A stretch of 64,000 nt of DNA from Polytrichum commune (Eukaryota; Streptophyta; Polytrichopsida; Polytrichales; Polytrichaceae): assembly GCA_950295325.1 (NCBI GenBank), contig OX485809.1, positions 1,800,001 to 1,864,000 of the forward strand, given 5' to 3'. Positions within the stretch are counted from its first letter, which is position 1. Each line of letters opens with the position of its first letter. The notes below the pieces were generated by a model. That model ran no database searches and was not told the DNA's origin. It saw only the letters and a list, made by a program, of their open reading frames with translations. The translations under genes were made by a program, and so were the position numbers. Below, in pieces: positions 32,621-61,416 of this stretch.

Positions 32621-32965
32621 CTCGGGGGGGGGGGGGGCAGTGTGTTAAAAAGTTAAGGATATAGGTGCGAACAACCACTATTTTATAGGGGGGTATTACT
32701 TTCAATTCTCTTTTTTTTTTCACATGCTATCATTATGTAAATTTCTACTTTGGGTTAATAGAAAAATGGCTTGCATTACTTATAATTCCAAAGTACCTAT
32801 TATTCCATACCCTATAGTACTTTAAAGATGTCCAATGCCATTTTTGATACCCTATATTACTCTTAAGTCGATTTATAATTTTTAGCTCCCATGTTTTTAA
32901 AATACCCTATCATTTGTTCGCACGTGTATTGCTACTCCAACCAATGACTACCCCCCCCCCCCGAG
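32621..32965. mobile_element. MITE with poly-G/poly-C ends, copy 1
   Basis: The left end is CTC followed by G(15) and the right end is the mirror poly-C followed by GAG. Just inside, GTGCGAACAA (left) and TTGTTCGCAC (right) form a subterminal inverted repeat. Flanking octamers are GATTTGAT and GAATTGAT (7 of 8 identical). The interior is about 90 percent identical to 59176-59551. There is no coding capacity. Confidence 0.85.
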
Positions 32966-33127: not shown

Positions 33128-33361
33128 ATCACTATATTCAATAATCGGAGTTTTTTTCATGATTTTGAGACTATTCAAGGACATGGTTGTTAAATAAAGA
33201 AAAAATATATATTCAATGTGACTTAATAAAGTGATTTGCATGGGCAGCACTAACCAGCTTGGCACAAATACATGTCACCACTGAAGAAATTGAACTACAT
33301 ATTAAACCATTTGCATTTGTTTTGAAACTTCCCAAAGTTTCTAATTAATGAATATAATGAT
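33128..33361. mobile_element. 234-bp MITE sharing the ends of the 16.7-kb element
   Basis: It begins ATCACTATATTCAATAATCG and ends TCTAATTAATGAATATAATG then AT, the inverted counterpart. The left end continues TGATTTTGAGACTATT(C/T)AAGG exactly as the right end of the 16.7-kb element does on the minus strand. It is therefore a short, non-autonomous relative lying outside that element. No target duplication is recognisable. Nothing is encoded. Confidence 0.75.
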
Positions 33362-33919: not shown

Positions 33920-34140
33920 GGGTGCAAGCATAGTAAAGTGGACCAAAAAAGTGCTCCGGTATATGAAAGCCATGATTTTCATGGTCAAATGCCTATAAGT
34001 AGTAGCAAAATGTTGTTTAAAATAGATTATTTTTCATGATGACCTCTATTGTTAAGTTAGATACTCAAATATAGAATATCAATATGAGATCTTGAAAAGC
34101 TATTATCAAAACTGATGCATAAAAACATCTGACTAAATGT
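33920..34140 (+). mobile_element. Left half of a GGGTGCAAGC-family MITE, split by the 16.7-kb element
   Basis: It begins GGGTGCAAGCATAGTAAAGT and follows the full copy at 51582-52208 as far as its AAAAGCACATGGTTGAA region, then stops abruptly at ATGT (34137-34140). The missing remainder resumes at 50809. The left part (221 bp) plus the right part without its Stowaway insertion comes to about 612 bp, compared with 627 and 585 bp for the two intact copies. Confidence 0.92.
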
Positions 34141-34169
34141 AACACTATATTCGTTAATCGGAGACTTTT
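34141..34169 (+). repeat. Left terminal inverted repeat of the 16.7-kb element
   Basis: It starts AACACTATATTCGTTAATCG and runs into GAGACTTTTGAAAGTCTC, itself a small hairpin. It pairs with 50780-50808. Confidence 0.85.
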
Positions 34170-34545
34170 GAAAGTCTCAAAATTAAATATGCCCATAGTT
34201 TGGGATGCCAATATTGTGGGCATATAGAATATTGGGAACATCAAGAACATGATGATTTATAAATTCGCATGCGCAGAATATTATCATTACTAAAAATAGA
34301 AAGTCTCAATTACAATGAAAACGTGTAGTCCATGTAAAAAATAACAATGGACTTTTAAAAACAAATTGTTTTTGTCATTTTAGAGTTTAGGGTGCCCATC
34401 CCAAAAGTAAGGGTCTTATAAAGTTGGATGACACATCCCAAACATATGCCACAATGGAATGTGACAAGTCTACTAAGTCTATTAAAAACCAAGCTTGCTA
34501 AGCTCACATGCCTCTCGCCATTAACTCCCACCTAGTATGTTATGT

Positions 34546-37500
34546 TTACCCATCTCCATCTTCCGCTTCATATCCATTGTCCGAGTCATTTTCCGCAGCT
34601 GCAATACGTGCCAAATTGTCCTTGGCAAAATCTATATGTTTTTGGGGGATGGTCATTGATTCTGTTTTGGAACCTTTGCGCGGCTTCCAAGCACAAAGTA
34701 TAGTATCCGTGTTTATCCAAACCGGTTTGTACGCTGAGTCCATTGTCCACTTGAAATTCTTTTTGGTGTCCCAACCTAAATAAGTGCGAAGCACGTTCTG
34801 GTCTTTAGTGCTTGGACGGCAATATTCCACCTCAATTTGACGAAAATTGGGGCTAGTTCGAACAAAATTGGGTGAAGACAATGCTTTCACCAACCAAATT
34901 GGTTTGGGATGCTCCTCATCCCCAGCTCGTACGAGCACCATATAACCTTCGTGGCAATCAACCCCAACACGAAACGACGGTGCCGGTCGATTGCGGGCAG
35001 GGCCAACGTAATGTTCATCCATTGCGAACTCTTCACGAACGTCTCCATTGCTGAAAAACATGGTGTCGGACTCGACAACCGTCAAACGACTTTGTGGCCA
35101 AAACCCTTGTGTCAAAGTCGTACGGGTGTCGCCATCAACTGTCACTAGTGCCGAGCGAATGCGATCCCAATATGAAATCAATGGTTCATGAGTATCTTTA
35201 ACACGTCTAGTGATGTCCTCCTCACACAACTCCTTCCAATATTCAATGAATCCGGATATGCCTTTGATGATCTCCGGTCCATTCCTCATGGGGTCGGGTT
35301 TACAAGGCTTTGGATCCCCATCCGGGAGCAAACATTTCCCATCATTGTCTTGACGCCATACTAGTATACCATCATCCGGGCCCCAATTAGGAGATGTGCA
35401 CAAAAGCTTGAATTGCATGGCCGGGAGACCATCATCCCTTATATAGAATCGGAATTGTTGTGTTTTGGTGTGTCCCACCAAACGGTCCCCTCCTTTCAAC
35501 ATGTATGGCTTGATGAAGGCCTTAAAATCTGTTACTTCCTCGATCATGTGCGGAATCACCGGCATATGGTCCAAATCCATATACGATTTCATAAGAAGTG
35601 GTATGGTTGGAAAATCTTCCTCATGCAACTTCATGCTCCACCGTCCGAAGGACGCATCAATGTCGTCATGTGTGTGTCCCACCATCAAGAAAGACACAAA
35701 CACCTCCTTGAAGATACCTTTTGCCACAAGCAAAGACCAAAAACAAAATACGTATCGACATTTGTTGTCCTTTGCGCAATTATCAAGTTGAACGTGGAGA
35801 GTTGGAGGCAAAGGTTTTGCACAAATAGGCTCTCCGGATGCTTCCGGCAATGACGACATACAAACCTCCTTACCCGCAAGCACTGCCTCATAAAGGGTTG
35901 TCGTTCCACACCCATCAAACAATGCACGTGAAGACTGTATCGGCGGTTTCTCTAGATCGCGCAAGAGTTTTGCAAATGAACCCACCGTGTGGTTAGCATC
36001 GCCAGGGTAAAAATCCAAACCATAATGGGCATATTTTACGTCCCCATGGCCGTGGGCAATCATACCTATAAAAAACAAACGATGGGTTAATCTCCAAAAA
36101 AAATGAAGAGACCACTAAAGTAGAACATTTGGAAAAACCACCCAATAAAATAGGATTTAGGGTGAATATAGGTTTGTTATGCCATACAAACCTGTTACAG
36201 ATACGGGTAACTTGAAAAGAGCATCCGTGGCCTTTATTTTGCGAGCATAACAAGGGCATGCGGTTTTCGAGTGGTCCATTTTATCATGGATAATTGTTAG
36301 AACCTCTGTAGGCCTCATTATGGACAGAGCACGGTTCTTGTAGTAATCTTGACGGTGAGCCTCTTGGTTGTTGACATGTTCAATATATTTTGCCTGATGC
36401 CTGGTATGAGACTCAATACCTATGGGGTGGGCATCTCGAAGACCTTTGTATTTTTCACACGTCGTGCACCTCGCGAACTTGTCACCAGGTCTCTTCAAAA
36501 TATATTCTGCAAATTGTTGGTTTTTAATGACACTCAACTTGGACAAAGAAATGGGTCCACAACCCGCTATGCGACCCACTTCGTTGATATCCGTTAATAT
36601 GTTCTTCCATTTTGTGCCCGTGGGCAACACCATTTGAACAACTTTCTCCCCTGTCGACAATGTCCTCGTCTTGTGGGGCATTGCATCGGCCAATGGCACT
36701 ATGATCGTGGAGAGTGTGGCGGAGGCTTGGAGTGTAGACTCCCTAGGTTTCTTTGTGCCCGCATTGCCATGAAATCGAGAGCGACGACCCAATGATGAAT
36801 ACTTTCTAAACCTATAAAAGTCAGCCTTGGAGACGGCATGAATGGTATACCATGCGGTACAATACACTTCCACATTCTCGAGGGTCACCACCTTATGGCC
36901 ATGCGCATCAAGGTGCAAATTTCTATGAACCTCGAGTTTCTTTGCTGACCTCATACGAAAATCCGCAAGCCACATTTCCTGACGCAAAGACTTAATTTTT
37001 TCGCGGGGGAAAAATTGGCAACATCTTTTTGCACAACAATCCTTGGCGGACACGAGACGGATAGAATCGTCTCCTATTATGCGATCCCGTCGACGCTCTT
37101 TATCATCAGGAGGCGCGCGGCTATAATCATATCTACGGAGGCCTTTGCGAGGACGAGTGTTGGAAACCAAGGTTGATTGAATTTGCTCATGCCGTCGCCC
37201 ATGATCCCACAAGCTTACTTCTTCATGGAGAACCCGACGAAGGGGCCATCGGCGCAATGAAAACCTCCAAGTCACAGGGACCTCAAGCGGAAGCAAAGAA
37301 TTCAAGATGCACACCCCAACATCATGGAGACCAAGGGGATTGGCATCAACACATTCACGGGGATCGGAGTTTCTACATATGCCATTTGCCACCGGGACAC
37401 CTAGATCATTAAGTAGAACCACATCAAGGCCTACCCATTTCTCCCTACCATATCCTGCACACAAAGGAATGTCATCGTCGTCCATACCGAAATGTAGAGA

Positions 37501-37668
37501 ACTGTCGTGCACTTGAAAAGAATCATGAGAGGATGTACGCAATGACACACCCTCCACGTTTGTGTCGTCAAAACTACCCGCGGATGAGGATGAAATTTCA
37601 CATTCACGAACGGAGGACGACATGTCTGTTGACAACTCCAGAGAACTACCATCCACATGCATCGCCAT
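34546..37668 (-). CDS. Intact DDE-transposase-like protein (DUF7869-like C-terminal region)
   Basis: Two exons on the minus strand, 37668-36192 and 36065-34546, join through a 126-bp GT-AG intron (AACAG|GTTTGT...TTATAG|GTATGATT) into 998 residues without a stop. The ATG at 37668 follows an AG that may end a leader intron. The N-terminal 220 residues are acidic then Arg-rich, followed by a Cys cluster (DCCAKRCCQFF) that may bind metal. CTTCEKYK (near 420) is a second Cys pair. The catalytic-looking region has MDHSKTACP (Asp about 465), HVQLDNCAKDNKCRYV (Asp about 587) and VGHTHDDIDASFGRWS (about 626-629), an RNase-H-fold pattern that I recall from DUF7869 proteins of plants and animals. The C-terminus is acidic. 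It is the only intact enzyme gene inside the element, so it is the best candidate transposase. Activity is inferred. Confidence 0.82.
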
Positions 37669-37881
37669 CCCACCTACAAAAACCAGAGGCACCAGGAGAC
37701 CCAAACGTAAACTAAAGAATGACAGCCAACATGGACGACATTCAACGCAGCATGTCAAATCAGTCAAGTTCTAAATACCAACGTCCGTTCGTATACGACT
37801 GCAATAGTGAATGTGCCTATGTGTGGAAGTCAATAACTTAGAAAGCCTTTCAAAGTGCTATCATATTGATTGCTGATGGAA

Positions 37882-38999
37882 TTTACGAAAGTGCGTTCGT
37901 TAATTACAGACCATCGACCTGCATGAGCAGAACGTACAAGTTTTTTATACGAACGTACGTTCGTATAGCATAGGATGAATGAGTTTGGGTATAAAGGTTT
38001 ATAAACGAGGAGTTTTTTCTGGAAACCAGTACAGAACTCGCATGTTGTATTAACGACCAAAATTTGTAAACCACAACTATCCCGAATTTCGAAGAGTATA
38101 TTGGGACAAAACAGATAGCATGTTTACGAACGCACGTTCGTAAAACCACAGAAATCACTATCTGCAGGTGTACACCAGGAAATCATAGATGGCGTACTTA
38201 CGAACGCACGTTCGTAAATGAACAACCATTATATTTATAATTGCACATACATAAAAACGTAGATGCCACATTTACGAACGCACGTTCGTAAATGAACCAC
38301 CATTCGCATTGCAAATCATTGATATACATGTGTCACAACGTCGACTCTGGTATACTTTGGTAGTTACGAACGCACGTTCGTAAACCCAAAACATTGCGTC
38401 CGATCCAACTGTGCTACTGATGGGACCTCATACTTACGAACGCGCGTTCGTAAAACCACAGCAACCCCCATCTGAATGTATAAACTAGGAAATCATAGAT
38501 GGCGTACTTACGAACGCACGTTCGTAAATGAACCACCATTCGCATTGCAAATGATTGATATACATGTGTCACAACGTCGACTCTGATATACTTTGGTAGT
38601 TACGAACGCACGTTCGTAAACCCACAACATTGCGTCTGATCCAACTGTGCTACTGATGGGACCTCATACTTACGAACGCACGTTCGTAAAACCACAGCAA
38701 CCCCCATCTGAATGTATACACTAGGAAATCATAGATGGCGTACTTACGAACGCACGTTCGTAAATGAACAACCATTATATTTATAATTGTACATACATAA
38801 AAGTGTAGATGCCACATTTACGAACGCACGTTCGTATATGAACCACCATTCGCATTGCAAATGATTGATATACATATGTCACAACGTCGACTCAGGTATA
38901 CTTTGGTAGTTACGAACGCACGTTCGTAAACCCACATCATTCCGTCCGATCCAACTGTGCTAGTGATGGGACCTCATACTTACGAACGCGCGTTCGTAA
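37882..38999. repeat. Palindrome array A: 14 copies upstream of the transposase-like gene
   Basis: The core ACGAACG-NN-CGTTCGT, usually extended to TTACGAACGNNCGTTCGTAA, starts near 37882 (imperfect), 37948, 38124, 38198, 38272, 38364, 38434, 38508, 38600, 38670, 38744, 38818, 38910 and 38980. The centre is mostly CA, with CG, TA and TG also seen. From 38124 the spacing cycles 74, 74, 92, 70, then 74, 92, 70, then 74, 74, 92, 70, and the spacers recur with the same cycle, so this is a higher-order tandem repeat of 310 and 236 bp. It ends abruptly at 39000. The array lies 0.2-1.3 kb upstream of the gene's ATG and is well placed to be both promoter-proximal and subterminal. Confidence 0.95.
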
Positions 39000-39396
39000 G
39001 TATTCGGTATTTGCGGCGGTATATGCGGGATATGCTATGTCCTGTACCTGTGAGGAATACGGTTGGCAAACAGGAGGGTGGCTTGAGCGCGCTCCGACGA
39101 CTCTCTAGAGCGAACACCTCCCGTCAGCCGCAGAAAAGAGCTCTCCCGTGGGGGGAAAAGCTTTAAGTACCTCCCCCGGTGGTTCAAAATCTCTTGGATG
39201 CTCTTTAAAAAGCGGATTCCCGCCCCCTACCTAGACCTACCAATATGCCATTCCCGCCATGCCATTCCCGCCATGACCAATTATATAAATAGCATTTTGT
39301 ATGCAACATGTATTGCATGCACGCACATTATATTGGAAAAAAATATAAATCGGTCGCACACCTTAGATGTAACCAAGGTCTGAACCACCAAATCTA

Positions 39397-39398
<2 letters not shown>
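39000..39398. other. GC-richer spacer after array A
   Basis: A 240-bp GC-rich stretch carries a duplicated GCCATTCCCGCCAT. No conserved frame was found. It may belong to the element's promoter or leader on the plus strand. Confidence 0.35.
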
Positions 39399-39442
<44 letters not shown>

Positions 39443-39446
39443 TATG
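39399..39446. repeat. (TA)n microsatellite
   Basis: About 20 TA units, briefly interrupted by CA. Confidence 0.9.
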
Positions 39447-39548
39447 TTTCATGATATTTAAATATTATGAATTTTGACATAGAAGATTAAATGATTTGCA
39501 ACCAAGGTGTGAAGTCCAAGTTAATTAACAATTCGTATCTAATGCAAT

Positions 39549-39850
39549 AATGGTATATTTGGTAATTGGAGTCATTTAGTTGATTTTGAGACTATTTAAG
39601 AACGCACTTTAAATTTCAAATATGGACTTGTAATTACAAACTAAAACTTCCATACGTATAGTTTCCAAATCGGATACATCTTATATTAGACATAAAGGCA
39701 TTGAAGGGAACGAAATTATGAAACATAGTTACATGAAAATATTTGCACATGAAATGAGAAATAGACCCCAAAGGAAGGGAACATACCGAGAATTAATGGA
39801 ACTTGAATCAATTCAATGGAAATACCATCCATAACTCTTCTTAACCTTGA
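39549..39850 (+). repeat. Internal inverted copy of the element's right end
   Basis: Read 5' to 3' it matches the minus strand of 50808-50510 over about 300 bp: TGATTTTGAGACTATTTAAG, ACTTGTAATTACAAACTAAA, ATGAAATGAGAAATAG and GAATCAATTCAATGGAA all align. The terminal bases are degenerate (AATGGTATATTT compared with AACACTATATTC). An older nested element or an inverted end duplication would explain it. Confidence 0.75.
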
Positions 39851-40293
39851 TATATAAAAGAAACTAAATATAGAAACTAAATTTATATCACTCAATAAAG
39901 TGGGAGTGGGACTCATGGACCCATGAACAGAAAATCATTGACGCATGAATTAAGGGCCTAAGACATGCAAGTTATAATAATATTAAGTATGGATTGTGTG
40001 AAAAATTTGTATAATAACTATTAAGTTATTATTTCATCAAAACTCTTAAGTTTCAAGTTTTATTAATCACATAAACCAAATTTTTGTCTCAATTCAATTA
40101 ATTTAGAATCTCCAAATGACAATCGGCATGATTCTCAATTATTACGATTGATATGAATCGAATAAAGCAATTTCCAATCCATCGAACATCGGTAGATCAT
40201 TTTGACATGCCCATAGATCACAACATGGCCACATACAAGACTACCATGTAAGATACAAAGATGCAGGGATGTAGAGTTTAGGGTTGGTGATAG

Positions 40294-40320
40294 TGTTTAG
40301 GGTTTAGGGTTTAGGGTTTA
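40294..40320 (+). repeat. Short interstitial telomere-type repeat
   Basis: Three to four direct TTTAGGG units, the plant telomere sequence, lie within the element. Such short arrays are common in plant promoters and repair junctions. Confidence 0.85.
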
Positions 40321-40727
40321 GTGTATTCGACCACGTGGCTGCAATGCACAAGTTCAATCTAAAATGTCCTCAAATGAATGACGATAAACAAAATTCAAGC
40401 ATGTTTACTAAGTTATTGAAGTTAATGTGATAGACGCATCCATTACATATAGGGTTTACAAATCATGAATTTAATGTGAACTCATTACTTATACATTCAA
40501 GTCGTTATAAGTGTTAGATATTGTAGAATGTTTCATTCAATTAATATTTAAGTTGAATTATATATACTATCGTTTATGCTTTTTTTGTATTAAACCTTAG
40601 GGTCCTATTTTTAAAAACAATTAGTGTTAATTCTATAAATGTTCATGGTTTAGGGTTTTAGTTGTACAAGTGTTACTTGTACATTTTGTATAGTTGTTCT
40701 TTTTTAAACCCCCCCACCGAAGGCTGA

Positions 40728-41965
40728 TTTTTCACAAAGGTTTTGCCCGTCCACGTCCAAAAACCTTGAATTGAAAGGCAAAAAAAATTGCAACCCGTCC
40801 CAAAACCGGTAATTATTTCTAAACCAACCCGTCCATGGAAAGGTTAAAGAAAAAACAACCCGTCCCAAAACATGTAATTTCTAAACCAACCCGTCCATGG
40901 AAAGGTTAAAGAAAAAACAACCCGTCCCAAAACATGGAATTTCTAAACCAACCCGTCCATGAAAAGGTTAAAGAGAAAAACCAATTAATAAAGATAAACC
41001 GAAAGATGTTGGCATGTGATTGGTTGCACTTGGAAACAATAGGATCTTGCTTCAATGCCATCAATACTATGTCTTTTTGCTAATTTCAGCTGCCACCACC
41101 AGCATTCCCTCCACGACATTGCCCCCCCCCCAATTTTTTCCATTTGAGTTTTGAAGCTCTTCCCATCGAGCAGGTATTGAAGCTCTTCCCATTAACAAAT
41201 ATGAGTTAGTTAGGTATCTCTTACACACATTCTTTCTATATCTTTTGGGCATGAGGGATTATGAGGTTTTGGGTGAAGGATTTGATTTTTTTTTTTGGAA
41301 CAAGAACTGGTAGGCTTCGCGGTCGAGGAGATTCAACCTACCTTTTTTGTCATGCACTGCAATATGTGAGAGGGGTTTTCCTAAACAAAACCTAATCAAA
41401 AATCATCTACGTACTAGTTTGAAGTTAGAAACTTTAGAAGCTTTGATGCGCATTTCATGTGCAAATATTCCAGTTGAAAACATAAATTGGAATGCAGTGA
41501 TGCTTGTTTGGAGAAACATGAAGGATAGGAGAATTCATCCACTTCTTTGAAGGGTAAGTAGGTATTTATTTTAAATTTTTTGATCATATTCATATATAAT
41601 GATTCTTATTCAATTGCTAAGTGTACCTTCAATTATAATCTTTGACATTATGTTAAAAAGGTTCTAAATTTTGTGGCTGATGAATTAATGTATGCAAGTG
41701 AATCATGCACTTCAATTTGATATTTTGATTGGGTATTAGTGCTTTGATTGCATTATGCTTATATTCACATGTCATATATGACATAATGATATTTATACCA
41801 TTTATGTTTTTGAGACAAAAATTATAAAAACATTATTTTTAGAACCCGTCCAAAATAAATTTGAAATGTCCAAAAACCGGTTCATTTTCTAAGAACCCGT
41901 CCACTGGAAATGATTTTTTTTAATGAACATGTCCCTAGACATGTTAGGGACCTTGTGAAAAACCA
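40728..41965. mobile_element. Nested hAT-type remnant
   Basis: The two ends share an inverted TTTTTCACAAAGG motif (about 40728-40740 and 41952-41964), and AACCCGTCC motifs are clustered inside both ends, as hAT subterminal motifs often are. Near the left end, units starting at 40791, 40856 and 40918 make a 62-65 bp tandem repeat. A hAT dimerisation-domain fragment lies at 41347-41550. The exact borders and target duplication are not resolved. Confidence 0.55.
41347..41550 (+). pseudogene. hAT transposase C-terminal (dimerisation domain) fragment
   Basis: The frame reads ICERGFPKQNLIKNHLRTSL, then KLETLEALMRISCANIPVE and NAVMLVWRNMKDRR before a stop. ERGFxxQNxIK, followed by ETLEALMRI, is the signature of the hAT dimerisation region in ZNF862-like transposases. 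Upstream catalytic parts are absent, so this is a dead exon. Confidence 0.8.
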
Positions 41966-42713
41966 CCACTGCCCCTACCCCCCTTCATCTACCCATATCT
42001 ACCCATCCCATCCCACCCATCCCCCTCACACCCTCCCATCCCCACCCATTCCCCTCTCCTCATCCCTTCCCATCCCCCTCTCCTCATCCCTGCCCATCCC
42101 CCTCTCCTCATCCCTTCCCATCTCCCATGCTCATCCCTTCCCATCCCATCCATGTTAAGCGCGGTCCAGTGGAGGGATGCCACATGGCAGCCGCAGGGAA
42201 ACCCTAGCGGTGCCGGCTACCTCCCCGCGCCCCTCCTCCTCATTCTCATTCCCAACAGAGAGAGGAGGAGCGAAGTAGAGCGGAGCGAAGCTCTGGCAAA
42301 ATTTAGAATGCTTTAGTTTATGTGTTTTTTTCGCATCTTAGGAGTCGCATATTTCTCTTCAGTTTGGAACGAATCTGATTAGAGAGCTTCAGAGTTGTGC
42401 GCATCAGGAGTAGAGAGCTTGTGAGCTTGTGCAGGTTGCAAGCTTTCTTTTTTTTGTTGTTTTTGTGAGCTTCATAGTTGCAAGTTCGGAGAAGACAGCT
42501 TGAAGTTTGTAGGCTTCAGAGTTGCAAGCTGTGTTTTAGTGGTTGTTTTTGTGAGCTTGATAGTTGCAAGCTTGGAAGAAGGAAGCTTGATGGTTGCAAG
42601 ATTGCAATTTCAGTGCACAAGAGTAGTTGCTAGGGTTTAGGTCTCATTCAATTGCATACAAGGAGTGTTCCAAAATTTTCAGCAAGAAGAAACAAGGTCA
42701 AGCACATTGCAAT
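41966..42713 (+). promoter_or_regulatory. Putative promoter and untranslated first exon of the cargo gene
   Basis: A C-rich low-complexity block (41972-42150, units such as CTCCTCATCCCTTCCCATCC) is followed by a GC-rich stretch and then repeated GAGCTT and TTGCAAGCTT motifs (42390-42600). A donor-like AAT|GTGAGT at 42714 pairs with the acceptor TTTTGCAG before the ATG at 43579, giving an 865-bp leader intron. No TATA box is certain. Confidence 0.4.
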
Positions 42714-42986
42714 GTGAGTGAAGTAATCCTTCTAAACTCGCTTCCCAAACATTCTGAATTTCTGCATTGTTGAATTCCATGGGTTCTGTTTGTATTGTCA
42801 ACTTCTTTAGCATGAGATCTGGCATGTTGTGTATGCTTTATGAATTCTGCATTGATTTGGTTTGAGTATCCTGGTTCTGATCCAGTGTTGCAGGCACGAA
42901 CGCAAGCATTCTTCAGAGCTGAAGTGTATACGCATACGCATACATATACATATACGTACATGTACGGACAAAACGCTCTCAAGAAG

Positions 42987-43545
42987 TTCACATTTACGAA
43001 CGAGCGTTCGTAAATGTGAACACAACCTGCAAACCAGAGTTGTTGTGACCCCTCCCAGTCCATATGTTTACGAACGCACGTTCGTAAACACGCAACCCAT
43101 CCTCTTTTCATGTGTTTATGAACGCGCGTTCGTAAACACCCACCCCTAAACCCCTAAATTTTACGAACGCACGTTCGTAAACAAGGAATACATAATAGTC
43201 TGAGTATTTACGAACGCACGTTCGTAAGCACATAATCCCTGCCCATACCTCATTATACGAACGAGCGTTCGTAAATGACTGCCTTGTGCCCGTCAAAAGA
43301 TTTACGAACGTGCGTTCGTAAACACATGTTGAACAAATTGAAGATATAAATCAGTATAAGTCACAACAGAACAAAATAATATAAACACATTGGTATTTAA
43401 AACACGCAAACATCTAAAGCGAAAAGAACAGCCTCTCAAACATAACACATTTACGAACGTACGTTCGTAAATATCTCAACAACTATTGTTCAAAATATTT
43501 GAAAATTGTAGAACTCTGTCTGCTAAATACGAACGCTCGCTCGTA
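42987..43545. repeat. Palindrome group B: nine copies in the leader intron of the cargo gene
   Basis: Copies start near 42993, 43067, 43115, 43160, 43207, 43254, 43301, 43450 and 43528, about 45-75 bp apart for the first seven. The first is extended to a perfect 34-bp palindrome (42987-43020, arms TTCACATTTACGAACG). Centres are AG, CA, CG, TG, TA and CT. Unlike array A, the spacers are unrelated to one another. Confidence 0.93.
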
Positions 43546-44874
43546 AATACGATCCTGACTACTTATGTTGTTTTGCAGATGGCCATCCCTAACAGAAGCG
43601 CGATAGAGATGTTCGGACAGAAGTTGGAGAGTGTCCCAGAGTCAGTGACAGACGACAATGGGAATGACAATTATGTCCCACAGGAGGACTTCATGAAAGA
43701 GTGGACGGCGCTTCCAGAGATGTTAGAGGATGGAACATTCGTCCTCCGCTTCGTCTACCAGCTCAATACCAACGACGATGAACCAGAGCAGTGGGTGCAG
43801 ATGGCAACATGGGAGATAGATTCCGTGGAGGCACAGGGCAATTACGTAATCCTCAACATGAAGTACAACAATGACCACGTCAACGTGTTGCTGGACTACT
43901 TGGCATACACCTTCTCCCACAACTACGCGCAGATGCATGTTAAAGAGGAGGGAAAGCGTTTCGACCTGCCAAAACTCTTCACAAGATATAGCCTAAGTCA
44001 ACATTGGACAGCAAGGAAATTGACCGCTTTGTGCTTGAACATCTCCAAGACCAACAGTGCTGTGTTGGAGGCCAACAAGAAGAAGAAGAGTCCCAAGAAA
44101 CCAACGCAATCCGGTGCAGGCGGATCCAGAAGTGCTCCGCGGCCTGTTCCCACTGCGAGCAGATTGACCGAAGGTACGAGCAGACATTCCACTCCTTCGA
44201 AGAGAACGAGGGACGACATGGAGAAGTCTGGCGTAACTGAGGGCGCAGAGGTCAGTTCCCCGCCAGTCATGCCGGCTCCTTTGCAGAAAGGAGAGGTACC
44301 GGACGGTGCGAAGGCCACGCGCATCCTTCGAGATTTTAACAGTTACTCGAAGGACTGCTGGCCAATGGGTCGATTTTTCACATTCAACGTCGACTGCTTC
44401 AAATGTGAAAAATCTCCAAACAAGTGGGTAGTGAGGTCACGGGAGACCGGGGGTGTGAAGTGGCAGTTGAATAACCTCTACAACAACGTCAAGTGGGACA
44501 GGCAAACAGTTTGTGTGATGCCAAAGGGCTTCACTACCCGTCCCACGGAGAGGGATTGGCCACGAATCCTCAACGGAGATTTCTGGATCATCGACGGACA
44601 GCACAGCTTGGAGGCTGCTAAGATTGTTCTGAATGACGACGCCTTCCAGCACGAGCTGAAGGGCGACTTGCGCTATTGGAAGTCGTTTCTGGTGTAGTCA
44701 GACGACTGGGAGAAGCTCCGCAAAATATCAACGTATTTGAATAGCGGAAACAAGACGAAAGCTTTTGAGGCGTCATGGGCTGCGAATATTGTTGCTGCAA
44801 GAGACGTCTGGGTGGCACACGGTAGCCCCCCTAAGGAGAGGGAGAACGCCAAGAAACCTTCTCCACAGTGGAAG

Positions 44875-45042
44875 GTAAGTTTACGAACGTGCGTTCGTAA
44901 ACATCATCTCAATATTTCCTTTCTTGTTTGCATTTTACGAGCGTGCGTTCGTAAACATCAATTCAATATTTCCTTTCTTGTTTGCATTTTACGAACGTGC
45001 GTTCGTATTTTACTCTTGACTGACATCCATTTTAATATGCAG
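44875..45042 (+). repeat. 168-bp intron built of three palindrome units (54-bp period)
   Basis: Donor GAAG|GTAAGT and acceptor AATATGCAG border an intron with palindromes at 44880, 44934 and 44988. The unit repeats every 54 bp, spacer included (CATCAATTCAATATTTCC). The intron is a multiple of three and has no stop in the host frame, so retention would add 56 residues with the peptide LRTCVRK repeated. Confidence 0.85.
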
Positions 45043-46368
45043 GCGTTCTGCGACGCTATGGTGGACAAATTCTCCTCCATCGACATGAAGTCTACTTCAA
45101 CCAAGTCGGTGCTGGAGTTGAAAGGTGAGCTCAGGCTCATATGTTGTACAACAGACACCTGGGATTTATGGACCCAGTTTTTTGACTCCCACACGTCGGG
45201 AGATTTAACCAACCCCGACACGGAGGAGAAGTACAATGCCGTTGAGAACTTCGAGTGCCCCCCGCTGCTCAGGGAGTTCTTCAGACCCCTCCAAGGGCTG
45301 ACAGAATCGGAGTTGAAGCGATGCGCCGTGCACGCTCTAATGAAAACAGAGGGAAGGAAACTTCCCTATCCAAAAATATTTTTGAAGAGATCCAAGCACA
45401 AGCCCGGGACGTACTCCATCAAGGAGTGGTGCGAGCATCGAAAGCTGAAGACAGCAGCAATGAGGGAATTGAGCGCACTGGCACCTCAATACCAAATCTT
45501 CGACGTCGACGGCGACGTGAAGTGGAATCACTGGAAGGTGTTCAAGCAAGCCTTTAATATTAGAGGCCCCTCAATGCAAAGTCTGGTCAGGGAGCACGCC
45601 GCATCTTTGAAACTGAAGGGCAACAAACGGACTAAGAAGTCCGAGACGGATGCCCAGGAGGTGGGCCTTTATAAAAAAAAATTGGAGAGGAAGAGGACAG
45701 CAACATTCGAAGGAGTGGCGAGGTTTTGCACTGTCACCACCGGCCTGGAGAGGACCACATTCTCTAAGTGGGATGGTAGCTTCACCAGGGCGGATATTAG
45801 GGAGGACCGACGGGGATGCCCATTTGCCCTGATCGATTTCAGGAGCATCCCGGGTGCGTCGAGCCGCGGGACAAAGGACCTGCCATTCTACAACCCATTC
45901 ATGGCCAAGTTCATGGAGTACAAATCTCCTGCCATGAAGGAGCCCCACGTTTGGCTATGGATTGTCGAGCACGAGAGGCTGTCGGAAATTCTGGAACTGT
46001 ACGAGAAGACCATCAAGTTCGAGTACAGTATTTACCACAACACCTATGTTCCCACCAAGACAGAAGGGATCGTTGTAATCAACGAGGCCAGGGGAAACAA
46101 GCAGGTGGGAGCAGTCAGCCTCGTCTTCCTGACCTTCAACCAGCTAAGGGATGGGAGGGTCCCTATCAAGGCTAGCAATGTATTCAAGAAGATATACAAC
46201 ATCCCGCACCCACCTCCCAAAGATCTATTCCAGGAGACGTTATTTACTGTCATTCCCGCAGTTGAACTCAGGCTGGAATTCTACATATCCATTCTCCAGA
46301 GTTTGACAACCCATGGAGAGACGGTGTACAGCGTATACGGGGGCAGCAAGTTTTTGTACGCGGCCATG

Positions 46369-46591
46369 GTAAGCCCACTCTCATTTGTTTACGAACGTTC
46401 ATTCGTAATGTTCATTGGTCTATTAGTCTTAGTAATACTAGTTATCATACTAAGCTTGACGTTTACGAACGCACGTTCGTAAAGACCAAGGTCTGCACCT
46501 GAAATAATAGGTTAGACATGAAGTCATTGGGATTGCTGACTTTTACGAACGCACGTTCGTATTTGCTGACATGTTCTAGTTTATGCTACAG
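46369..46591 (+). repeat. Intron of the cargo gene with three palindromes
   Basis: Donor CCATG|GTAAGC and acceptor TGCTACAG. Palindromes lie at 46387 (degenerate), 46462 and 46542. In-frame stops make this intron necessary for the downstream coding part. Confidence 0.8.
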
Positions 46592-47574
46592 ATGCTTGGC
46601 TTGGTCGTCAATTCCTATCTGGACGCAACCGACGAAAAGGAGTACAAGCGTCACAGGGCAAAGGCGTCAATGATGGACCTGGGTGACATGAGTGGCCCCA
46701 GGACAGACTTCAGCTTGCCATCGGAGGGGGGAACGCCGGTAATTGACACGGATGATGACGAGCCCACCCCCTCAGCTAACCTTGAAGCGATCATCCAGTC
46801 GTTGGATGTCACTCCTCTGCTGTTACTGCCGCCATCAAGACTGCCTTCAGACCCCCATGGGACTCCTGGGGGCTACACCGGGTCGTCTGCTGGGGCAACC
46901 CAAGATGTCGCCCCCGCAAGAGTATCTGGACTGGATCCCTTCGGCACACCTGGGGGATGCTCGACGTCGGGGTCTCCCAGGACCTCCTCGGTGCCAAAGA
47001 TGGAGACACTCGACCTCCTCGACCAACGGTCGCGTCCATCCTTGGACCTCTTCAGGAACACGAGGAGGAGGATGAAAAAGACGCCCTACGTGGAGCTGCC
47101 GCCGGGGGCAATTATCGATGTGTCCGACGAGGACGAGGGGGACATGGACATCATGTCCGAGCTGGGGGTGGAGTACGACAGGAACAAGCGGGTGAAGGAG
47201 GAATCCCTCACAGTTGCCGAGCTCAACTCCAAGCTGGAGTAGAAGATGAAGGAGGAAATGGCGGCAGCGCAGGAGGAGAGCGCCAGACAAATGGCGAGGC
47301 TGGAGAAGGAGCTCAGGGATTCCGCCGCAAAGACAGACGCCATCTTCGAGATGTTGAGAAGCATGCAGAGCATGTCTGCTCCGGTGCAACAGCCCTACCC
47401 CTATCCCCCTGTAGGACACCCCTCACAGTCCTCTTCGCCAGGAATGTACCAAGCAGGGCCATCCCACCCCCGAGCGCATCCAACACCGGCTGGAAGTCCC
47501 TTTCCACCTGAACTGGCAACAACGGCAGCGCCTTCGCAGGATGCGGTCTCTGCGGCGATAAGAGAGGACGAAGA

Positions 47575-48069
47575 TTTACGAACGCGCGTTCGTGAATCTT
47601 CAGGTGCGGCAGTCCTCACCCCTCCCCCATCAAGGGTAGGACTGCCCTCAACTGCAGACAGGGTAGTTGCTAGGAGGGGCGATGACACTGCGGAACACAC
47701 TGACATGCTCATTGTGGAGGACACGCAGGGGAGCCCCAATGATGCGGCATGTATCGCGTGCATGGATGTGGAGAGCCCTGACCATTGTCAGCATCCTTCT
47801 GCGCGGATGGAGGATGTCCGCATGGAGACTCTCGACCTGGGCGGGGACGAAGACGAAGCGGATCTCATCGAACAGACCCAGGCGTCCCAGGCTGGCCATG
47901 CACCAGAGGCCATGGAGGCAGAGGCAGCTGCTCTGATGGAGGTTACGAACGCGCGTTCGTTAATCGAAGAGGAGGGAACTGCTCGGTCCAGTGCCGCTGC
48001 CCCTCCCCCCGATGACGAGGTAACTCATCTCTGAGAATACCTCTCATTTTACGAACGCGCGTTCGTAAC
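47575..48069 (+). repeat. Palindromes in the last coding exon and at the gene's end
   Basis: Copies at 47575 and 47943 lie in the coding frame, encoding LRTRVRES and VTNARS. The first is extended by flanking AAGATT/AATCTT. A third at 48048 starts 13 bases after the stop codon. All have a CG centre. Neither coding copy shifts the frame. Confidence 0.88.
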
Positions 48070-48330
48070 CAACTAACCCCCTCGTTTGTTATTGGCGCTT
48101 CATGTCCGGCGGCATCAGGAGGCCCGCGCGAGCCTTTTCTGCGTGACACCCTAGGCCTGCCAGTTTTGTAGGACAATTTTGTAGGACACGGAAATTGTGA
48201 TAGATTATCACATGAGGCATTTGTAAATATTCAACGGATTAAATATATGAGCAGTTTATCTCTGCATCGGATTTTCCCAATTTTGTGCATCGTCTATTCA
48301 ATCCCTGTGTTGTGAATGGTCTGGCGTCTC

Positions 48331-48634
48331 TATAAACTCTTGCATGCCCCTTCCTCAATCACGAACGCTCGTTCGTAAATGTGTGCGACCCAGTGTCCAC
48401 CTCCTTCACGAACGAGCGTTCGTAGATTATGCCTGTAATCTCACTCATGAACGAACGTTCGTAAATGACGCGCGCCGCCACCCACAGCCCTCATTCACGA
48501 ACGCGCGTTCGGAAGTGTGCCTCTGAGCGCATTCGCATTGCACTCTAAACCCTCGCTCCCTCGTCATTCCCTTAATGCAATTTTAATTTATTTATTGGAC
48601 CATATCATTGAACTAGTTAAATTGTTAATCACAG
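48331..48634 (+). promoter_or_regulatory. TATA box and palindrome-bearing leader of the phosphatase gene
   Basis: TATAAA at 48331-48336 is followed by four palindromes at about 48359, 48405, 48446 and 48494. If transcription starts about 30 bases after the TATA box, all four are in the 5' leader. An AT-rich stretch ending TTAATCACAG (48634) is a probable leader or first intron. The first coding exon could not be placed. Confidence 0.5.
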
Positions 48635-49402
48635 GACCCCACGAAGTTAAATCGCAACCCGTCGGCGAGTGGGCCTCAGACCCGTCACAAGCCCTTCCTG
48701 GTTCTTGACCTTAACGGGGTGTTGTGTCACACCCAACACATCCCCAAGGTCCCCACCCGTTCCTTCCGCCAACCCGACGAGATGGACTACGATGGCCAGC
48801 TCGACACTCTGATAAACCGCAAGGCCGTCCGCGCCCGTCCAGGCGTGCGGGACTTCCTTCGAGAGGTGCTCGACCTCTTTCACGTGGTCGTCTGGAGCTC
48901 CATGATCATGGAGAACACGGAGGCCATCGTCGACTTCCTCTTTCGTGGCCTCCCGAGACCATGCCTCGTCCTCGGCCAAGATGCGTGCGACGATCTAGTC
49001 GACGAGAAGGGGTTTCCCGTGCCCAAGTTCGGTGGTCGAGGAGGGGGACAACAGTTCCTCAAGGTCCTCCGGTCCAGGTTGTGGCAAGGCATCCCCATTC
49101 TCGAGGGGGTCCCCCACGGACACTGGCTTACGCCGGAGAACACCCTCCTCGTCGACGACAGCCCAACGAAGAGCGTCCTCAATCCCCCGGGCACCGTCGT
49201 CTTCCCCGACACTTGGACCGGCGATAGGAAAGATACCTTTTTGGTCGATAAGCTAGCACCTTATCTTAGAATGCTAGTGCTCCACCCCGGGAGCATCCCC
49301 AATTTTGTTAGGTCCAACCCCATCGGCAACGCCGCGCTTAGTCCCCGCGACAATGTATATAAGAGCATCGTGCGGCTTGCAAAAATCAATAAATTGATTT
49401 GA
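48635..49402 (+). CDS. FCP1/NIF-type HAD phosphatase, main exon (5' partial)
   Basis: The frame opens right after a splice acceptor and runs to TGA at 49400. It contains motif I as FLVLDLNGVLCHTQ (DxN where phosphatases have DxD), motif II as VVVWSSMIMENTEAIVDFL, and motif III as LLVDDSPTKSVLNPPGTVVF, all in family order and spacing. FCP1-like enzymes remove phosphate from Ser in RNA polymerase II tails and other proteins; many plant paralogues also have DLNG. There is no in-frame ATG before motif I, so an upstream exon is needed. The gene lies inside the transposon, so it is probably captured or long-resident cargo. Whether the D-to-N change leaves activity is unknown. Confidence 0.8.
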   Translation, partial: DPTKLNRNPSASGPQTRHKPFLVLDLNGVLCHTQHIPKVPTRSFRQPDEMDYDGQLDTLINRKAVRARPGVRDFLREVLDLFHVVVWSSMIMENTEAIVDFLFRGLPRPCLVLGQDACDDLVDEKGFPVPKFGGRGGGQQFLKVLRSRLWQGIPILEGVPHGHWLTPENTLLVDDSPTKSVLNPPGTVVFPDTWTGDRKDTFLVDKLAPYLRMLVLHPGSIPNFVRSNPIGNAALSPRDNVYKSIVRLAKINKLI

Positions 49403-49460
49403 ATTGCCACCGTGTATTTGTTTGTTTCCATGTGGATCACATTTCTAATTCCTTTTTTGG

Positions 49461-50434
49461 ATGCCTTTTGGTCGTGTTTGTTGTTGTTGTTGTTGTTGTT
49501 CACAGTTTGCCCCGCCTTGCGACGCCCCCCTCCTCGATGGCCCTTTCATTCCCCGCTCGGCCCCTCCCTCGCCCTCGCGCGACGCGTCGAACTTCCGAAT
49601 GCCATCCCTCTACCAATTCTCGGCGGTGGACGCGGCGTCGGCCGTGGATTACTCCCGTGACGTCGGGATCGAAGACGGTGTCGTCAATAGTCCTCCCCCC
49701 AAACTCCACTTGCGCACGCGCGCACCCTCGCCCTCTCCCCTCTCCAAAGAGAAACGAACTCTCGTTCGTTTGGCTACGACGTCAAGGGAGGACGGTGTCC
49801 CTCGTCGCGGTCCGAGCCGGCGTCTCCGCATGGAAGCCCCCCCGCAGGAAGCCCTCCCCTCCGCCTCCGCTCCTCCCCCTGCCAACTCCTCCCACGTCGC
49901 TCGTCCCCCTTGCATTGATCCCCCCGTCAACGGCCCGAAAGCCAAGGTGCAATTTCTTTTACTCCCCTACCACATTTCCCGCCGTTGGTTTACTTGTCTC
50001 CCATGTTTACATTCCCTTGTGGCCACGATGTTTACGAACATACATCCCAAACCGCCGTCGTTTCCCCCACTCCGTTCAAGCCTTTGATTTAATCCCACTA
50101 AATTTGCTTTCTTTCGCAGGTGCCTACTCGCTCGATGGGTGCCCATCCCTCCTCGACGTCGTCCTTGGATAGGCTGGCACCCAAGGCCACGTCCTCCGAT
50201 TCCGATCGTTGTTTGGCCGTCCGGCGAACCACGAGACAATCTGTCTCCCAAACGCAATCGTATTCCACTCACCATACCACTTCGTACAATTCGGGAGCAC
50301 GTCCGGATAATATTATATGGAAGAACGGCACATATTCCGGGTCCGTCAACAGTAATGGTTATAGCCGCGGGCCAGAGATTTTTAGGGCCATGGAGGCTGC
50401 CAAAAAAAAAAAGATGGCCGCGACAAAAAAATAG
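49461..50434 (+). CDS. Small Ser/Pro-rich protein with basic tail, two exons
   Basis: Exon 1 (ATG at 49461 or, more likely, 49599) ends at 49946 (GCCAAG|GTGCAA). Exon 2 is 50120-50434 after TTCGCAG, in phase 0. The 49461 start would translate a TGT repeat that looks like an intron tail ending TTCACAG at 49504, so either 49599 is the start or the exon begins at 49505 and belongs to a longer transcript, possibly with the phosphatase. From 49599 the product is 220 residues, rich in Ser, Pro and Arg, ending EAAKKKKMAATKK, with a weak NNxxNG-like region (NIIWKNGTYSGSVNSNGY). A degenerate palindrome at 49754-49769 lies in the coding frame. No family recognised. Confidence 0.5.
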
Positions 50435-50779
50435 TGGGACGGACTCCCTAAACTAAAAATAGGTTCAAGGCTATTAGATATTATCTATGACTTTAGATTT
50501 TATTTCGTGTTCTCCAAGACATTGATGGTTTTTCCATTATCCTTGTATTTCATTCCAATTGAATTAATTCAATTTCCATTCATCATCCGTATCTTGCCTT
50601 CCATTCATGACCATTTCTCATTTCATACGCCAATATTTTCATGTATGCTTCACATTTTCATTCAATTCCATGCTTTTATGTCTTATTATTGTTTCCAACC
50701 CTATACATTTCCAAGTTTTAGTTCGTAATTACTAGTTCTTATTTGAAATGTGCGTCCTTAAATAGTCTCAAAATCATCT

Positions 50780-50808
50780 AAAAGTCTCTAATTAATGAAT
50801 ATAGTGTT
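50780..50808 (-). repeat. Right terminal inverted repeat of the 16.7-kb element
   Basis: Read on the minus strand it begins AACACTATATTCATTAATTA and continues GAGACTTTT, 26 of 29 bases matching 34141-34169. The ATGT target copy follows at 50809. Confidence 0.85.
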
Positions 50809-51328
50809 ATGTACTTTTGAACATAAATTTTATGACCTTAAATATGTTGAACTTGGAATTTTTTTCATGTCCCTTGAATTCATTATAAAATTGAGGTCAT
50901 TGTAATTTTTTTTCAAAGATTCATCAATTTAATGTAATGTAATTATATTTTAAACATATTTTTGACAATTATCTTTTCAATGTCACCCACTTTTTCCACC
51001 ACTTGCACCATCTTCTAGAATACATATACATTGTTTTAAAAAAAAATTGTGAACATAAATTGCTTGGCTTTGTAGATTCATATGTTTTTAAATGTATATG
51101 AATTTCTATTTCATAAAATTCAAAGTTAGTACTCCCTCCGTCAAAAAATAATTGTCCTACTCCCTGGAGTTTAATGTCCCAAATTGTTGGTCCAACAAAC
51201 ATTTTGGGATACTAAACTCCGGGGAATAGGACATTAATTTTGGGACGGAGGGAGTATATAGTTTTGGATCACTTTCACTTAAACTTGAGCAAGGATCAAG
51301 AGCTGTTCACTTTACCGTGCTTGCACCC
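50809..51328 (+). mobile_element. Right half of the split GGGTGCAAGC-family MITE
   Basis: It resumes the MITE (TTTTGAACATAAATTTTATGACC region, then GGCTTTGTAGATTC) in the same order and orientation as 51582-52208 and ends CCGTGCTTGCACCC at 51328. It is interrupted by the Stowaway MITE. The outer flanks (ATAC on the left at 33916, ACAT on the right) no longer show a clean duplication. Confidence 0.9.
51132..51254. mobile_element. Stowaway-type MITE with TA duplication
   Basis: It begins CTCCCTCCGTC and ends GACGGAGGGAG, the classic Stowaway (Tc1/mariner) terminus, with TA on both sides (51130-51131 and 51255-51256). At 123 bp it has no coding capacity. It sits inside the right half of the split MITE. 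Confidence 0.97.
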
Positions 51329-51581: not shown

Positions 51582-52208
51582 GGGTGCAAGCATGGTGAAG
51601 TGGACCAAAACAATGCTTTGATATACTAAAACCATACTTTTTTGGGGATCAAAGGCCTAAAAGTAATAGCAAAGAGTTGTTTAAATTGTATTATTTTTCA
51701 TGATGACCTCTATTATTGTGGTAAATACTCTATGTAGAATATGAAGTTGAGATCTTCAAAACCTATTATTAAAAGTGATGTTCAAAAGCACATGGTTGAA
51801 TCCAGTTTTGAACGTAGATTTCATGACCTTGAAATATTTTGAAGTTAGATTTTAATTTTTAATTTTTTTTTACTGGTATCCCTTGATTTCATTATATACT
51901 TGAGGTCATCATCACAAAAATTTATAGAAAAACATCAATTTAATGTAATTTGATCGTATTTTGAACAAATTTTAGACACATGTTCAATGTCACCTACTTG
52001 CACACCACTTGCATAATTTTCTAAAGTATGTAGAATTTTCTTGGAATTATTTTTGTCATCATAAATTACTTGGCTTTGTAGATCAAATTTTTCTAGATGT
52101 CTATGATTTTTTTCTTCACAAAATTCAAGGTTAGTGTGTAATTTTGAACCACTTTCACTTGAACCTAGGCATGGATCAGAAGTTGTCCACTTTGCCATGC
52201 TTGCACCC
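51582..52208 (+). mobile_element. Intact GGGTGCAAGC-family MITE, 627 bp
   Basis: The ends are GGGTGCAAGCATGGTGAAGT and, inverted, CCATGCTTGCACCC, flanked by CATG on both sides (51578-51581 and 52209-52212). A 4-bp duplication is consistent with the ATGT seen at 55841. There is no gene. It serves as the reference for the uninterrupted site of the 16.7-kb insertion. Confidence 0.92.
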
Positions 52209-59175: not shown

Positions 59176-59551
59176 CTCGGGGGGGGGGGGGGGGGGGGGG
59201 GGGGGCAGCGTGTTAAAAAGTTAAGGATGTAGGTGCGAACAACCACTATTTTATAGGGGGGTATTACTTTCAATTCTCTTTTTTTTTTTCACATGCTATC
59301 ATTATGTAAATTTCTACTTTGGGTTAATAGAAAAATGGCTTGCATTACTTATAATTCCAAATTACCTATTATTCCATACCCTATAGTGCTTTAAAGATGT
59401 CCAGTGTCATTTTTGATACCCTACATTACTCTTAAGTCCATTTATAATTTTTTGCCCCCATGTTTTTAAAATACCCTATCATTTGTTCGCACGTATATTG
59501 CTACTCCAACCAATGACTACCGCCCCCCCCCCCCCCCCCCCCCCCCCTGAG
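59176..59551. mobile_element. MITE with poly-G/poly-C ends, copy 2, perfect 8-bp duplication
   Basis: The left end is CTC plus G(27) and the right end is poly-C plus TGAG. AATTTGGC lies at 59168-59175 and 59552-59559. The interior matches 32621-32965, including the GTGCGAACAA / TTGTTCGCAC subterminal pair. An 8-bp duplication points to a hAT-type transposase in trans, although homopolymer ends are not usual for hAT. Confidence 0.92.
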
Positions 59552-60495: not shown

Positions 60496-61416
60496 TGGGG
60501 GGTGCACCTTTCATAACACTTATGAGTATGTGTGAGTGCACAAAAGGGGTACTGGTTTGAACTTTGATGTACTACGTACCTATATGCTACACAAATTGTA
60601 GCTCATAGTTATGTACATGTATGAAGGACCTCTAGAAAATATACAACATTTGTACTTGTATGATAGTGTTACTAGACTTTATGAATCAAGTATTTAATAT
60701 TGGATGAAACTAAGATGAATAAATTTCTCATTTCCTTATCTCATGTTGGGGTTTCACCTTTCATGAAAAACCAAGAACTACGTGCGTTTGCAACATACTC
60801 TAGAAACCCCCTATATACAAGTTTTTCCCCCTCTATAATCAAGTAATATGCATACAATTTCAATGATAAAAGTAGAAGTGACAATATGTATACGTTAAAA
60901 AATTCACATTCATATATAGTCATCCAAATATACTTTTAAATAATAACGAACCCCTATTCTATGTATAACATAAAACCCTAGAATTCATTAATAAAGTTGT
61001 TGAAGACTTTATCATTCCCTGGATGTAACTCACAAGCATCTAAGTCTACAGTATATGTCATAGAAGCTATTCCAATTATCGTTTCTAAATCTACCATCCA
61101 ATGATCTGTAAGATTATAGGTCCACTTATTGTTGGATCCTTTTTGATACCAACATAAACCAATCTCCATGTTTGATGGACAATCCATCAAGTCAATTAGA
61201 TCTATATACTCCATCCAATGTTTAGATACTTATCCCCACAATGTCTAGTGACCCTACCATAAAGTACAAATGTTGTATATTTTCTAGAGGTCTTTCATAC
61301 ATGTACATAACTATGAGTTATAATTTGTGTAGCATATGTATACGTAGTACAGAAAATTAATACCCCTTCTGTGCACTCACATATACTCATACATGTTATG
61401 AAAGGTGCATCTCCTA
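60496..61416. mobile_element. 921-bp element with inverted ends of about 165 bp
   Basis: 60496-60660 is the inverted counterpart of 61260-61416: GTGCACCTTTCATAACA, TGTGAGTGCACA and TAGTTATGTACATGTATGA recur on the opposite strand. The outer ends read TGGGGGGTGCACC and, inverted, TAGGAGATGCACC. The same terminus occurs at 62555-62571. Inside, on the minus strand, a 78-codon frame (61214-60978) reads IDLIDLMDCPSN and DLDACELHPGNDKVFNNFI. It recurs, broken, at 62118-62380 on the plus strand. The frame is not a known transposase to me and may be a captured gene piece. Confidence 0.75.

Follow-up and report, generated by a model that had tools for sequence, protein, structure and literature searches.

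A giant DNA transposon family in the moss Polytrichum commune carries clustered 16-bp palindromes that may be bound by its own ParB-like, methylase-like protein

The Element and Its Copies

We analyzed a 64,000-bp stretch of the Polytrichum commune genome (assembly GCA_950295325.1, contig OX485809.1, positions 1,800,001 to 1,864,000), hereafter the window, and found a DNA transposon of 16,668 bp at 34141..50808 (plus strand; window coordinates are used throughout). The element encodes a transposase with a DUF7869 domain and a conserved set of accessory genes, and its noncoding regions hold arrays of a 16-bp palindrome, which we discuss as candidate binding sites of an element-encoded protein.

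The left end, AACACTATATTC, begins at 34141 and the right end, GAATATAGTGTT, stops at 50808. The terminal inverted repeats (34141..34169 on the plus strand and 50780..50808 on the minus strand) are near perfect, agreeing at 26 of 29 positions, and are bordered by the target site duplication ATGT at 34137..34140 and 50809..50812. When the element and one ATGT were removed, the rejoined flanks formed a single host repeat spanning the junction and aligned with two other stretches of that repeat in the window (51582-52135 and 56448-55917) at 73.5% identity over 563 and 567 columns. An earlier note on this DNA had defined the element to the base from its ends, the duplication and the flanks as two halves of one repeat, and all of these were re-found.

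The genome searched for further copies comprised 407.8 Mb in 64 contigs, seven of which, 42-78 Mb in length, carry nearly everything. With the left 400 bp as the query, 727 candidates yielded 40 scored matches, of which 22 reached 98% identity or more, and the right 400 bp gave 41 listed matches among 703 candidates. The start of the left end was identical in all 20 copies fetched from the 40 scored, the window copy included: 18 open with AACACTATATTC and 2 with ATCACTATATTC, and none starts elsewhere, which upholds the boundaries. Both ends were located in 15 copies, again counting the window copy, and the 4-bp duplications were identical in 12 of them (ATGT, ATGA, CCGG, AGGG, TTGG, TGAT, AACA, TCTT, AATA, CTTG, TAGT and ATCT), without a consensus sequence. 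One further copy agrees at three of four positions (CACA/CACG), and the duplications differ in two (L017 and L018), whose ends lie far apart and may be mispaired. This count omits L006, L010, L013 and L020, for which no right end was located, and three pairs in which the right-end motif was absent from the short stretch fetched. The family has the inverted ends and fixed-length duplication of a cut-and-paste DNA transposon. Copy length was 15.7-17.8 kb among the fetched left-end set, other copies being longer, probably due to nested insertions. Same-type copies are 95-99.5% identical to the window element in the stretches compared, and with its exact ends and intact transposase the element is giant and recently active, as had been claimed.

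Two of the copies, L011 (G000 C3:44442997) and L010 (C3:44580232), share the same 25 bp of left flank but are oppositely oriented, ~137 kb apart, an arrangement that suggests a segmental inverted duplication. Within the window, a short nonautonomous relative resembling a miniature inverted-repeat transposable element (MITE), 234 bp long at 33128..33361 and with family-type inverted ends ATCACTATATTC...GAATATAATGAT, sits 780 bp from the element; it shows no clear duplication.

The Transposase

The transposase gene lies on the minus strand and consists of exon 1 (36192..37668), a predicted 126-bp GT..AG intron (36066..36191) and exon 2 (34546..36065), the splice site being placed from the sequence and its homologues. 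The spliced reading gives 998 amino acids with zero internal stops, confirming the intact DDE-like protein of that length in the earlier note. Exon 1 holds the motif HDKMDHSK, at residue 461 of the spliced protein, and exon 2 the motifs VQLDNC and GHTHDDID together with the DUF7869 domain (PF25273, E 3.7e-41), which scored 141.3 bits against a curated cut-off of 26 and was the only Pfam match of this exon at E values up to 1. The RNase-H-type strand order, the invariant acidic residues and a second-look structure list favor an RNase H-fold DDE enzyme; plain Foldseek does not, returning no match at E ≤0.001 and unrelated proteins in its top rows. In a structure model of a homologue, the C-terminal part appears BAH/SH3-like. 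A sequence search of solved structures with the transposase found none, and viral_contigs contained no relatives of exon 2. The organism names among the 120 listed homologues were those of two mosses only, Ceratodon purpureus and Physcomitrium patens. We found no paper linking DUF7869 with transposition.

Sola1 transposons make 4-bp duplications, and the element shares this length. Its placing within the CMC group by CACTA-like ends, offered tentatively in the earlier note, is not supported: the profile search matched DUF7869 only and the termini are AA..TT, whereas those of CMC/CMCT elements are 5'-CA..TG-3' in most cases (PMC12730594, in excerpt). The 4-bp duplication does fall within the 2-5-bp range of CMC/CMCT, an unspecific criterion. 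The 4-bp length does not fit KDZ, whose duplications are of 7-8 bp according to the same excerpted text (PMC12730594).

The Accessory Genes

The accessory genes lie on the plus strand. A ParB-like exon (43588..44874; start codon not fixed) is followed by intron 1 (44875..45042), an exon for a degenerate N6-adenine methyltransferase-like domain (45043..46368), intron 2 (46369..46591) and a C-terminal low-complexity open reading frame (ORF; 46592..47242), which ends in TAG, with a same-frame ORF continuing over 47243-48034. Both introns are predicted, the first with the help of homologues. A NIF/FCP1-type HAD phosphatase ORF (48629..49402; PF03031, E 9e-16; start codon not fixed) is of the FCP1/SCP type and CTD-phosphatase-like; NCBIfam gave sub-cut-off matches of phosphatase type only.

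The motif IIDGQHSLEAA, together with weak hits, suggests that the first accessory protein is ParB-like and may belong to the ParB/Srx superfamily. Its sequence search against solved structures returned a single chance-level row, and in phage records a homologue of the protein had one chance-level match (E 8) and a homologue of the methylase-like protein none. Methyltransferases of the N6-adenine/MT-A70 type carry a catalytic DPPW/DPPY motif. At the presumed catalytic site of the methylase-like domain, placed by eye, we find instead D-F-R-x-x-P, with D264, F265 and P269 invariant in 31 rows, and the motif looks degenerate.

In the window copy, an in-frame TAG at 44695-44697 interrupts the ParB-like gene, and none of the 15 other copies read at this position has the stop. 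The transposase is intact, but the description of the element as autonomous or recently autonomous has to be qualified for this one accessory gene. The unrelated cargo genes of the earlier note, at least three, constitute a conserved gene set of the family, re-found at 32-44% protein identity at a diverged locus described below.

A 16-bp Palindrome in the Noncoding Regions

The CpG-rich palindrome ACGAACG-NN-CGTTCGT occurs in 29 exact copies in the element, the 14-bp core in 30, and eight further sites have one mismatch. Allowing up to three mismatches gives 39 sites, 29 with exact arms and 9 with one mismatch, while the center varies, with six different kinds of dinucleotide among the cores. 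The 47 kb of flanking sequence contain zero copies, even at three mismatches. Thirteen perfect cores and two one-mismatch sites form an array upstream of the transposase (37777..38998), seven perfect cores and two one-mismatch sites an array upstream of the ParB-like gene (42996..43544), and four perfect cores precede the phosphatase ORF (48051..48512). Each of the two introns holds two cores, the first palindrome of intron 1 lying a few bases past GTAAG, and the remaining two fall in the low-complexity ORF. Noncoding sequence hence holds 28 of the 30 cores, with none in the transposase gene or in the ParB-like, methylase-like and phosphatase exons. The palindromes had been overlooked in the earlier account of the element's contents.

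Genome-wide, we counted 5,602 exact copies of the palindrome versus 4 of a reversed control, clustered among the places listed, and no other palindrome of the element with 7-bp arms recurred at such a scale. In the fetched loci L021-L044, at up to one mismatch, element-like sequence (122.8 kb, with 500 bp added around matches) held 220 palindromes, and the other 101.9 kb held 10. We considered the CpG content as a mark of escape from methylation and dropped it as ambiguous. No paper on such palindromes was among those listed in literature searches, the nearest being one on Ectocarpus (PMC12477816).

Subfamilies and Module Exchange

Among 20 stretches fetched at the distance of the right half, nine were of the window type (type A, 95-99% identity), nine of a second type (type B, 72-75%), one matched a third type (type C) only and one had no match. 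The left ends of the same 20 stretches are 98-100% alike over 400 bp despite the different types of right half, and six type B right halves (L007, L009, L011, L012, L015 and L016) share an insertion with an A-like left end, as seen from identical duplications. The original B element (L051/L052) has a left module of 87% identity and the duplication ATCT; its transposase (L051) has one stop in the aligned stretch. As these alignments read, many copies are chimeric, with the transposase module from A and the accessory module from B. At 39554..39823 (plus strand), the element contains a degenerate, left-facing version of its right end (203 of 270 columns identical), which may be an old border of the transposase and cargo modules. 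The A and B subfamilies have one palindrome in common, which fits their exchange of modules. The Sola2-Fanzor chimeras PPa-1/4/5 of Polysphondylium, as excerpted from PMC3627910, similarly combine a 98%-identical transposase half with differing other halves and have 4-bp duplications; they differ in the AT-rich sequence of these duplications and in their Fanzor cargo.

Comparison of the A and B types gave ratios of nonsynonymous to synonymous substitution rates (dN/dS) of 0.06-0.08 for the exons of the ParB-like and methylase-like parts, where synonymous sites are close to saturation, and 0.17-0.18 for the phosphatase, and comparison of transposase exon 2 with the original B element gave 0.13. 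Among recent copies the ratio was higher, up to 1.7, with few differences. Judged by these ratios, all genes are maintained over longer time.

A Different Palindrome with a Diverged Protein

The type C gene set, found at L040, is related to that of the window at 32% identity for the ParB-like protein (with one stop in the L040 copy), 36% for the methylase-like protein and 44% for the phosphatase, and a family-type right end lies 2 kb past it. This ParB-like gene has no type A palindrome at up to three mismatches. The corresponding intron and the region upstream of the gene instead contain seven copies of TGGGTCG-NN-CGACCCA, three perfect and four with one mismatch, and this C palindrome is absent from L001-L039 and the window at up to two mismatches. 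It has 10,055 exact copies genome-wide versus 1 for its control. For the A and C palindromes, the 100 places at the head of each list do not overlap, although this comparison spans the first 2.15 Mb of C1 and a single A cluster and says little. Type C could not be upheld as a complete element, as its flanks disagree (TCAG/TGAT) and another element lies between. ORFs of 469 and 155 amino acids at L040:7683-9543 come from another element, inserted in the A-left copy beside the type C gene set.

Environmental homologues of the protein that read through exon ends into introns provided a second comparison. Translated A palindromes were seen in 22 of 50 homologues with at least 60% identity and in 0 of 26 below, while a third palindrome, ACGGACG-NN-CGTCCGT, was seen in none of the 50 and in 6 of the 26; of the 76 homologues, 37 had no such peptide and 11 an ambiguous one only. 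Neither palindrome was found in the 120 transposase homologues. Site and protein thus appear to diverge together, as seen at one type C locus and in the environmental read-through.

Candidate Function of the Palindromes

The dyad keeps its arms while its center varies, lies in noncoding sequence close to splice sites and the starts of genes, and differs where the protein differs, as would be expected of the sites of a dimeric sequence-specific binder. We consider it probable, at roughly 0.6, that the palindromes are the cognate sites of an element-encoded anti-silencing or activating factor resembling VANC, with the ParB-like/methylase-like protein as the candidate. The family is a recently active cut-and-paste one with a DUF7869 DDE-type transposase, 4-bp duplications and a conserved accessory set, and under this model its ParB-like/methylase-like protein most likely binds the CpG-rich palindromes as a dimer. 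Once bound to these sites, in the introns and upstream of genes, the protein would hold the genes of the element open, by anti-silencing or activation, and the action would be limited to elements carrying the matching palindrome. The window copy, with its ParB-like gene stopped, would depend on protein from other copies.

Our preference for an element-specific factor of this kind draws on two precedents. VANDALs are Mutator-like elements (MULEs). In excerpts from the Arabidopsis work (PMC5735166; PMC10398659), VANC is associated with short motifs in VANDAL introns and upstream regions, which change with the protein, and with local loss of methylation. The present family resembles that system in the element-encoded protein, the short motif clustered in introns and upstream of genes, the turnover of tandem repeats and the motif shifting along with the protein. 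It differs in that VANDAL motifs are 8-9 bp long, whereas here we find a DUF7869 transposase, a 16-bp dyad and a ParB-like/methylase-like candidate binder; moreover, loss of methylation is demonstrated for VANC and would be a putative effect here. The second precedent is Sola1-1_Ec32 of Ectocarpus, which like other algal transposons encodes ParB plus DNA methyltransferase proteins, suggested by the authors to bind and modify their own element (PMC12477816, in excerpt). The binding sites of these proteins are undescribed in the excerpted text, and the moss family differs in its degenerate methylase motifs, its phosphatase gene and its land-plant host. The transposon itself is of known kinds, and the palindrome-protein system links two known ideas. 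The family offers candidate targets for ParB-plus-methylase proteins: two pairs of protein and site occur naturally in this genome, and relatives show a third, making the idea of their self-directed action directly testable. If true, sequence-specific anti-silencing would have arisen a second time, apart from VANC, on the basis of a DNA-binding domain of prokaryotic type.

Bacterial ParB/parS combines a 16-bp palindrome with a ParB-type motif, and the main alternative is an architecture of this sort, in which the palindromes serve as loading sites from which the protein spreads over the 16-kb element or bridges it, for end pairing in transposition or as a partition-like complex. The IIDGQHSLEAA motif of the family, the similarity across the motif stretch in the 32%-identical relative, the parS-like size of the dyad with its 2-bp center and the distribution of many sites over the element all agree with it. 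Still, we regard it as unlikely: the sites lie upstream of genes and in introns, away from the element ends, a placement that fits gene control better than end pairing, and the ParB fold itself is putative. The setting also differs from the bacterial one in being a eukaryotic nucleus with many sites per element; no ParA was noticed in the element, although no search was aimed at it.

Two further explanations seem to us quite improbable, to a similar degree. Hairpins formed by the palindromes in introns and leaders could act on the RNA, aiding splicing or hiding transcripts, as might be expected of sites a few bases from the predicted splice sites, in both introns and at corresponding places in diverged relatives. 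A lone hairpin would nevertheless permit paired changes within the family, and the exact arms of 29 of the 39 sites (9 having one mismatch) around a varying center point to recognition of the sequence; arrays are also located upstream of the predicted gene starts. Alternatively, the palindromes could be a separate satellite or mini-repeat spread by tandem duplication and unlinked to the encoded proteins. Many sites do stand in tandem arrays, a 1.8-kb piece sampled within an A cluster lacked element genes, and 10 of the 230 sites in the fetched loci were outside recognized element sequence. An unlinked repeat, however, does not account for the different palindrome at corresponding positions beside the diverged protein or for the segregation of palindrome type with protein identity among the environmental homologues.

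Extending the anti-silencing model, we tentatively suggest, at somewhat less than even odds, that one plant genome holds several orthogonal address codes of ParB/parS type. The ParB-like/dead-methylase protein of each giant transposon family would recognize only its own CpG-rich 16-bp palindrome, repeated thousands of times in the genome, and sustain the activity of that family. Protein and code would coevolve, and modules of the same code would recombine freely.

Other Repeats in the Window

Apart from the element, the window contains two repeats of ~340 bp (32624-32962 and 59192-59531), 96-98% identical and starting with a run of 14 Gs. A short inverted repeat at 51130-51256 has CTCCCTCCGT ends, which we take to resemble those of plant Stowaway-type MITEs. 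Several nested inverted repeats with arms of 61-109 bp cluster at 60498-62504 and may represent fold-back elements or nested MITEs.

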